A program made the position numbers and the translations under genes. From assembly GCA_944383455.1 (NCBI GenBank), contig CALWPP010000008.1, positions 1 to 64,000 of the forward strand: 64,000 nucleotides of DNA, read 5' to 3'. Below are positions 32,946 to 35,428 of this stretch, one piece after another (position 1 is the stretch's first letter; each line of letters opens with the position of its first letter). Below the pieces are notes generated by a model, which was not told the origin of the DNA, did not search any database, and saw only the letters and a program-made list of their open reading frames with translations. The stretch is from an uncultured Peptostreptococcaceae bacterium (GTDB lineage Bacteria > Bacillota > Clostridia > Peptostreptococcales > Peptostreptococcaceae).

Positions 32946-32992
32946 TTCGACTTTTGAAAATGACATAAAGTACATAACTTTTAAAGTATAAT
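32946..32992 (+). promoter_or_regulatory. Putative spoIIG-type promoter (long spacer, Spo0A-box-like site)
   Basis: TATAAT (32987-32992) lies 31 bases before the proposed spoIIGA start. The best -35-like sequence, ATGACA (32960-32965), is 21 bases away instead of 17. TTCGACT (32946-32952), complement AGTCGAA, matches six of seven bases of the Spo0A box TGTCGAA. The Bacillus subtilis spoIIG promoter is known for a 22-base spacer and Spo0A binding near its -35 region, so the arrangement fits. Binding is inferred. Confidence 0.5.
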
Positions 32993-33022
32993 TATATAAA
33001 GAATGAAAGGAGGTATTTTATA

Positions 33023-33847
33023 ATTTATATAGAGTATTATATTTTAGAAAATTTTTTTATAAATTATATTCTTATATCTTGTACCTCTATTTTATTAAAA
33101 TTATATGTACCATTATATAAAAAGATTATAGGTTCAGTAATAGGTACATTTTATTCACTGATGTATATATACATAGTTTTTGATTTTTTATTTACTATAC
33201 CATTTAAAATTGTTTTTATGAGTATTATAACTCTAATAAGTTTTGGGTTTACTAATTTAAAACATTTTATAAGAACTTCAATTGTTTTTTATATTGTTAA
33301 TATATTTATATCAGGAAGTACTTTCTTTATAATGTATTTTACTGGGACAAGTAATACAAAAATTTCGTTTATAATAGCTTGTGTTTATTTTAGTTGCGAG
33401 CTTTTAAAATACATTTACAAAGAATTAAAAAGTACAAGTTATATTGAAAGTATCAAAAAAAATATAATCATAAATATTCTTGAAAAAAATTTAGAATGTA
33501 CAGCACTTTTAGATAGTGGCAACTTATTAAAAGATCCATTAGGGAATAATGATGTAATAATAATAAAGCCAAATTTGTTAGAGGACATTTTGCCTGAGAG
33601 TATATTAAAAGAAAAAGATATAGGTAATATATACGAAGTTCTATCAGATTATAATAAAGAATTAGCATCAAAAATAAAAATAATACCTTATAAAGATATA
33701 ACAAACAACAAAAATAATTTAATACTTGGAATAAAAGCTAACTATATTGAAATTGACAACAAAAAAATAGGTAATATAGTTCTTGGTATATCTGATTTTG
33801 ATGAGGTTGATTACCAAGCTATATTAAATCCAAGTGTTATTAATTAG
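33023..33847 (+). CDS. spoIIGA: Sigma-E processing peptidase SpoIIGA (non-canonical start)
   Basis: A membrane-embedded aspartic protease that activates pro-sigma-E in the mother cell. The protease domain has ALLDSGNLLKDP, whose Asp in D-S-G is catalytic. From the first ATG (33161) the product is only 228 residues and lacks the first membrane segments. The same frame is open upstream and reads YIEYYILENFFINYILISC, the usual SpoIIGA N-terminus, right after a strong AAAGGAGG (33007-33013). No ATG, GTG or TTG is available there, so initiation probably uses ATT 33023 (spacing 9) or ATA 33020. From 33023 the product is 274 residues with about five membrane segments. sigE follows after 9 bases. Confidence 0.88.
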   Translation: MYIEYYILENFFINYILISCTSILLKLYVPLYKKIIGSVIGTFYSLMYIYIVFDFLFTIPFKIVFMSIITLISFGFTNLKHFIRTSIVFYIVNIFISGSTFFIMYFTGTSNTKISFIIACVYFSCELLKYIYKELKSTSYIESIKKNIIINILEKNLECTALLDSGNLLKDPLGNNDVIIIKPNLLEDILPESILKEKDIGNIYEVLSDYNKELASKIKIIPYKDITNNKNNLILGIKANYIEIDNKKIGNIVLGISDFDEVDYQAILNPSVIN

Positions 33848-33856
33848 GGGGATAAA

Positions 33857-34567
33857 ATGAATAAATTAAAAAACAAGATTATATTATTTCTTATCAAGCT
33901 AAAAATAATAAAAGCAAAAGGAATTTATTATATGGGTGGTACAAATGTACTTCCACCACCACTAAATCAAGAAGAAGAATTTGAACTTTTACAAAAATTA
34001 GAAGATGACGACAGTATAAAACAAACTCTAATAGAGAGAAATTTAAGACTTGTGGTTTATATTTCACGAAAATTTGAAAATACTGGAATAGATGTTGAAG
34101 ATTTAGTTTCAATAGGTACAATAGGACTTATAAAAGCTGTTAATACATTTAAATTAAATAAAAATATAAAGCTTGCTACATATGCCTCAAGATGTATTGA
34201 AAATGAAATACTTATGTATCTTAGAAAAAATAGCAAGAAAAAAGTTGAAGTTTCATTTGATGAACCTTTAAATGTTGATTTAGATGGAAATGAACTTTTG
34301 CTTTCTGATATTTTAGGAACAGAAAGTGACGAAATATATAAAATTATAGAGGAAGAAATAGATAAGGACCTTTTAGTTATGGCACTAGATAGTTTATCTG
34401 AAAGAGAAAAACAAATAATGGAACTTAGATTTGCACTAAAAACTAGTGGTAGAGAAAAAACTCAAAAAGAAGTTGCTAATATGCTTGGAATATCTCAGTC
34501 ATATATATCAAGGCTTGAAAAAAAGATTATATCAAGGCTTAAAAAAGAAATAAAAAAGTTTGTATAA
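33857..34567 (+). CDS. sigE: RNA polymerase sporulation sigma factor SigE
   Basis: Directs early mother-cell gene expression after cleavage by SpoIIGA. The 236-residue protein carries an N-terminal pro-sequence (about 1-25, basic with a hydrophobic run) ending at [10 protein letters not shown], the region cleaved in Bacillus. Region 2 ([42 protein letters not shown]) and region 4 ([23 protein letters not shown]) are complete. GGGGGATAAA precedes the ATG. It is co-transcribed with spoIIGA. sigG follows after 87 bases with its own upstream region. Confidence 0.96.
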
Positions 34568-34654: not shown

Positions 34655-35428
34655 ATGCAAATTAATAAAGTTGAAATCTGTGGAGTAAACACATCAGAAC
34701 TTCCAGTAATAAAAGGTAGCCAAATGATGGAATTACTTTTAAAAGTAAAAAGTGGAGATGATGTTGCTAGACAGCAGTTTGTTAGGGGTAACTTAAGACT
34801 TGTCTTAAGTGTAATACAAAAGTTTAATAACAGAGGAGAAAACATTGATGATTTATTTCAAATAGGTTGTATTGGACTAATAAAGGCTATTGATAATTTT
34901 GATTTAAGTCAGAATGTTAGATTTTCAACTTATGCAGTACCAATGATTATAGGAGAAATAAGAAGATATTTAAGAGATAATAATCCTATAAGAGTTAGTA
35001 GGTCTTTAAAAGATATCGCATATAAAGCATTACAAGTTAGGGAAAGACTAGTTAGAGATAATGCAAAAGAGCCAACAGTTGGTGAGATTGCAAAAGAATT
35101 AGAAATTCCTGTTGAAGATGTTGTTATGGCTCTTGATGCTATTCAAGACCCTGTTTCACTTTTTGACCCTGTTTATCAAGATAATGGTGATGCAATTTTT
35201 GTTATGGACCAAGTTCAAGACAAAAAAGACACTGATGATAACTGGCTTCAAGAGATAGCTTTAAAAGAGGCAATAAAAAAACTAAATACAAGAGAGAGAT
35301 TAGTTCTTGATTTAAGATTTTACAAAGGAAGAACTCAAATTGAAGTTGCAGATGAAATAGGGATATCTCAAGCACAAGTATCAAGAATTGAAAAGACAGC
35401 TCTTAAAAATATGAGAAAATACATATAG
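34655..35428 (+). CDS. sigG: RNA polymerase sporulation sigma factor SigG
   Basis: Controls late forespore genes. The 257-residue protein has no pro-sequence and begins MQINKVEICGVNTSELPVI, close to known SigG N-termini. Region 2 is NLRLVLSVIQKFNNRGENIDDLFQIG with TYAVPMIIGEIRRYLRDN; region 3 has PTVGEIAKELEIPVEDVVMALDA; region 4 has TQIEVADEIGISQAQVSRIEKTAL. AAAGAGAGG precedes the start. The sigE-sigG pair is the ancestral arrangement in endospore formers. A terminator closes the unit. Confidence 0.96.
   Translation: MQINKVEICGVNTSELPVIKGSQMMELLLKVKSGDDVARQQFVRGNLRLVLSVIQKFNNRGENIDDLFQIGCIGLIKAIDNFDLSQNVRFSTYAVPMIIGEIRRYLRDNNPIRVSRSLKDIAYKALQVRERLVRDNAKEPTVGEIAKELEIPVEDVVMALDAIQDPVSLFDPVYQDNGDAIFVMDQVQDKKDTDDNWLQEIALKEAIKKLNTRERLVLDLRFYKGRTQIEVADEIGISQAQVSRIEKTALKNMRKYI

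Follow-up and report, generated by a model that had tools for sequence, protein, structure and literature searches.

The spoIIGA gene of an uncultured Peptostreptococcaceae bacterium has very probably lost its AUG start codon to an AUU at position 33023, and our comparison with homologous genes suggests that it is still translated from this codon, with a strong Shine–Dalgarno (SD) sequence compensating in part for the weak start. Such a start of spoIIGA is rare and, judging by comparable systems, most likely works by a mechanism that is already known. The gene lies in a stretch of 64,000 nucleotides (the window; the features described here are on its forward strand), which belongs to contig C8 of a draft metagenome-assembled genome (MAG) of 1.64 Mb (27 contigs, 88.6% complete, 26% G+C). 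According to homology searches, the host family also takes in Romboutsia and Clostridioides.

Results

The frame upstream of the first ATG encodes the SpoIIGA N-terminus

In the list of open reading frames (ORFs) of the window, spoIIGA is preceded by ftsZ and a methyltransferase-like ORF and is clustered with sigE and sigG, which follow it. Except for spoIIGA, we take these gene names from established knowledge: the ORF at 33857–34567, which includes a pro-sequence, is presumably sigE (pro-sigma-E) by established gene order and sequence, and the next ORF, at 34655–35428, is taken to be sigG. The spoIIGA frame extends from stop to stop over 32978–33847. Upstream of 33161 it has no ATG, GTG or TTG codon, and the in-frame codons 3' of the SD sequence read AGG TAT TTT ATA (33020–33022) ATT (33023–33025) TAT ATA GAG. 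The first standard in-frame start codon, and the choice of a standard gene caller, is the ATG at 33161–33163, which lies 46 codons after the ATT. The original prediction, that only this ATA and this ATT are available before the first ATG and that standard callers would cut off 46 residues, agrees with sequence, coordinates and frame.

By its conservation, the frame 5' of ATG 33161 is coding and specifies the N-terminus of SpoIIGA, as was also predicted. The product of 33023–33847 (274 amino acids plus stop) matches Pfam PF03419 (Peptidase_U4) over its full length (E = 7.7e-55, profile positions 2–283 of 284), whereas the match of a product begun at ATG 33161 starts only at profile position 51. 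The translated segment upstream of 33161 aligns with the SpoIIGA N-termini of the family. Residues 3–46 are on average 55% identical to 24 homologues, compared with 49% and 47% for two later parts of the protein; against the homologue from the same genus, the values are 66% for residues 3–46 and 62% and 46% for the rest. The catalytic DSGN-type aspartic protease motif is at 33512–33523, and its D, G and N are invariant in 25 homologues. SpoIIGA is a membrane protein with five segments that is activated by SpoIIR (PMC13174948), so that a lack of the first segment would probably matter.

Start codons of spoIIGA in relatives

SpoIIGA loci were collected by searching 71 family genomes and GTDB contigs, and were compared codon for codon at their 5' ends; in the GTDB contigs an alignment query gave loci and a single-protein query returned nothing. 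A standard start codon (ATG, GTG or TTG) stands at the column of ATT 33023, or at most two codons upstream of it, in 88 of the 90 distinct homologous loci. This column holds ATG in most Peptostreptococcaceae, including the only genome of the same genus (L014/L065); C. difficile and Paraclostridium have GTG there, and a few others TTG. In more distant Clostridia, spoIIGA starts two codons earlier. The two other loci, the window and MAG Md513_bin53 (L051/L085), have ATT at the start column and no standard start, and in Md513_bin53 the ATT is at the same codon and follows a strong GGGGGTGG SD. A standard start codon is thus absent from a conserved gene start in these two loci, as would be expected of a natural AUU or AUA start, and this supports the non-standard start that had been proposed. 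The column of ATA 33020 is a variable spacer codon in relatives, with ATA preceding the ATG in several of them; for this reason, ATT 33023 is the better start candidate.

A separate irregularity was seen in Clostridium sp. CCUG 7971 (L021/L055/L078), in which spoIIGA is apparently frameshifted near its 5' end: a standard start is present, but its frame differs from that of the protein body.

Strength of the Shine–Dalgarno sequence

The original prediction had described a strong SD before the start, and the comparison with relatives bore this out. The core AAAGGAGG at 33006–33013 extends with its flanks to GAAAGGAGGT at 33005–33014, a ten-base match to the anti-SD sequence. Predicted to pair with the 16S tail at −17.0 kcal/mol, it ranks first among 84 distinct SpoIIGA loci, for which the family median is −11.9, and surpasses every one of the 272 ATG-start genes of this genome that were examined (median −9.7). 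Md513_bin53, with the second ATT copy, comes third of the 84. By chance, the two ATT copies would both be placed among the first three with a probability of about 0.0009 (3 of 3486 pairs), if the relatedness of the loci is ignored. These ranks are as expected if strong pairing compensates for a weak codon. The original prediction suggested that weak initiation could keep the protease scarce; as the AUG of spoIIGA in relatives is accompanied by weaker SDs, the strong SD may simply offset the codon. Both candidates are at a suitable distance from it: the spacing is 9 nt to ATT 33023 and 6 nt to ATA 33020, compared with about 5–8 nt, judged by eye, in relatives.

Promoter and leader

In C. difficile, a sigma-A promoter (GTGACA/TATAAT) has been mapped upstream of spoIIGA (PMC3789822). 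The window has a corresponding layout. Most relatives carry, equally far upstream, the TTCGAC...ATGACAT block that lies at 32946–32966 in the window and is presumably the Spo0A-box/−35 region. The presumed −10 box, TATAAT at 32987–32992, is likewise conserved; in the relatives compared it precedes the start column by 31–36 nt. A promoter scan stayed at chance level, and the promoter assignment rests on this conservation. Because the promoter elements sit just upstream of the gene, only a short leader remains; we infer, by analogy with the mapped promoter, that the mRNA begins near 33000 and has a leader of about 23 nt. The leader showed no special hairpin (z = −1.1). Termination-reinitiation was also considered, from an out-of-frame mini-ORF (ATG AAA GGA GGT ATT TTA TAA, 33003–33023) whose stop overlaps the ATT. 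It was set aside, as the mini-ORF begins about 3 nt from the probable mRNA 5' end and lacks an SD of its own.

Integrity of the assembly and of sporulation genes

About 464 conserved genes are unbroken in this assembly and 13 were flagged as broken. Most of those flagged resemble antisense shadow frames, and by our reading no more than one is a real break. If errors were frequent enough to make one at this single base plausible, many genes would be broken; with some 460 intact and the ATT present in two MAGs, a sequencing error there is unlikely. The spoIIGA frame, the catalytic DSGN, the promoter elements, the sigma-E pro-sequence, sigE and sigG are all intact, and the genome encodes uninterrupted SpoIIR, Spo0A and SpoIVA. 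SpoIIR is the signal to which a SpoIIGA of this family would respond by processing pro-sigma-E.

Discussion

Based on these comparisons, we propose a model for the start of spoIIGA. A third-base change in this lineage would have turned AUG into AUU at 33023. The extended, near-perfect SD of the short leader would fix the 30S subunit on this AUU, which the initiator tRNA would then read. Initiation would probably be weaker than at an AUG behind the same SD, and the strong SD would make up for part of the difference. The product would be full-length SpoIIGA, including the first membrane segment. The sequence, the alignment, the SD strength and the intactness of the gene and of the pathway genes are observed here; that initiation takes place at the AUU, how efficient it is and whether it has regulatory consequences are inferences. 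The loss of AUG from a checkpoint protease gene that has the strongest SD among the copies of the family looks like a natural example in which SD strength stands in for the start codon.

Two observations argue against the AUU. At 9 nt, its spacing slightly exceeds that of relatives and ATA 33020 also fits, so translation might begin one codon earlier, at the ATA, or at both codons. We consider this unlikely. The ATA has a workable spacing of 6 nt, S. aureus has documented AUA starts (PMC13009471) and infC of this same genome apparently uses ATA; however, the start-codon column of the family is 33023, and the codon before it is the variable one that reads ATA ahead of ATG in several relatives. 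The other observation is the ATG of the same-genus relative, which means that the ATT may have arisen recently and be harmful, leaving spoIIGA silent or nearly so in a lineage that is losing sporulation. The small size of the (draft) genome and the several other family genomes without any SpoIIGA match fit such a loss. Yet no damage is seen in the frame, the catalytic motif, the promoter, sigE, sigG or the genes for SpoIIR, Spo0A and SpoIVA, the SD has not decayed but is stronger than any other in the family, and a second MAG shares the ATT; such a silencing is therefore improbable.

The ATT itself rests on the consensus of a single MAG, and with ATG in relatives the true codon might be ATG. 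The original prediction had named ATG in relatives, combined with a sequencing error, as what would speak against it. The first half came true, for relatives do carry ATG, the same-genus MAG included, but an assembly or sequencing error is very improbable given the low rate of gene breakage, the ATT at the same codon in Md513_bin53, and the further genes of this genome and of G002, a relative with a closed genome, that appear to start at AUU or AUA. A shorter protein begun at ATG 33161 would have the first standard in-frame start codon in its favour, but it would drop 46 conserved residues with the first membrane segment and leave the strong upstream SD unused, and a scan of the first 70 codons gave no standard start with an SD. 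We regard this start as extremely improbable. We thus favour the AUU at 33023.

To our knowledge, natural AUU/AUA starts have, infC apart, been established for few genes. The E. coli infC gene is a chromosomal gene with an AUU start that limits its translation; it encodes IF3 and is under feedback control. E. coli pcnB also has an AUU start and limited translation (Binns and Masters 2002, as cited in PMC13009471). The proposed spoIIGA start resembles both in being the AUU of a chromosomal gene. Unlike infC, spoIIGA encodes a sporulation protease, and among the lineages seen its change is confined to this one. In S. aureus, Ribo-Ret identified natural AUU/AUA starts in infC, cvfC1, ccpN and citZ; infC (AUA), cvfC1 and ccpN have extended SDs. 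In reporters of three genes, expression was about 10% of that from AUG, with ccpN reaching up to 30% in rich medium (PMC13009471). The likeness to spoIIGA is close: a Firmicute, an AUU or AUA codon and extended SD pairing, and infC at AUA in both genomes. However, the S. aureus starts were mapped by Ribo-Ret and three of them measured by reporters, whereas the spoIIGA start is predicted from sequence. Moreover, the non-canonical starts of cvfC1 and ccpN are conserved in relatives (PMC13009471), whereas the relatives' spoIIGA uses AUG, GUG or UUG. Within the Peptostreptococcaceae, C. difficile and others share the protein, gene neighbourhood and promoter layout, but spoIIGA starts at ATG-GTG in C. 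difficile and at ATG in most others, behind a weaker GGGGG-type SD.

Predicted non-standard starts elsewhere in the family

The likeness to infC suggested in the original prediction holds as to codon type, for infC of this genome itself starts, by prediction, at ATA (C5:44890; L298). In most relatives examined it has ATT, apparently also in G002. In G002, the start is clear for 462 genes; for three of these, this genome has ATA or ATT behind a strong SD instead: spoIIGA, cls (predicted ATA, C1:142749; L160:2749) and a gene for a GntR regulator (predicted ATT, C22:3319; L217:3319). A scan for orphan SDs gave further candidates, whose family names come from Pfam matching. One is rny (RNase Y), with a predicted ATA start behind AGGAGGTG (C3:37160; L174:17160–18686); G002 rny (C1 near 1768560) has an apparent ATA start behind AAAGGAGGTG, and the non-standard start is possibly conserved between the two genomes. 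A PilB-like ATPase gene has a predicted ATT start (C5:22645; L188:2645), and its G002 counterpart an apparent one. Two candidates lack a close homologue: a PotC-like permease gene (predicted ATT, C8:76089; L202:12089) and a glycosyltransferase gene (predicted ATA, C17:14874; L149:14874). The scan selected for strong SDs and is noisy alone, as other codons appear too, and we place weight on the homologue-backed cases. All these starts, from infC, rny, cls and the GntR regulator to the PilB-like ATPase and the rest, are predictions of a grade equal to or below that of spoIIGA. One further G002 gene has ATT where this genome carries ATG, so the change between AUG and AUU/AUA seems to be bidirectional in the family and to occur in a closed genome as well.

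These cases suggest that AUU/AUA starts make up roughly half a percent of genes in the family, and this wider pattern is a more interesting lead than spoIIGA alone. Gene callers that allow only ATG, GTG and TTG would mis-annotate such genes, for instance by cutting off the membrane-anchoring N-terminus of SpoIIGA. It is conceivable, if doubtful, that the Peptostreptococcaceae maintain a small AUU/AUA set with extended SDs (infC, rny, the PilB-like ATPase gene and the spoIIGA of this lineage) whose members react jointly to growth state or to the level of IF3. The stringency of initiation would then tune both sigma-E activation and RNA turnover.

A release-factor-like ORF on the minus strand of contig C9 (21069–22116) was also noticed. 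Its similarity sets in with no start codon, as the programmed frameshift known from prfB would lead one to expect.
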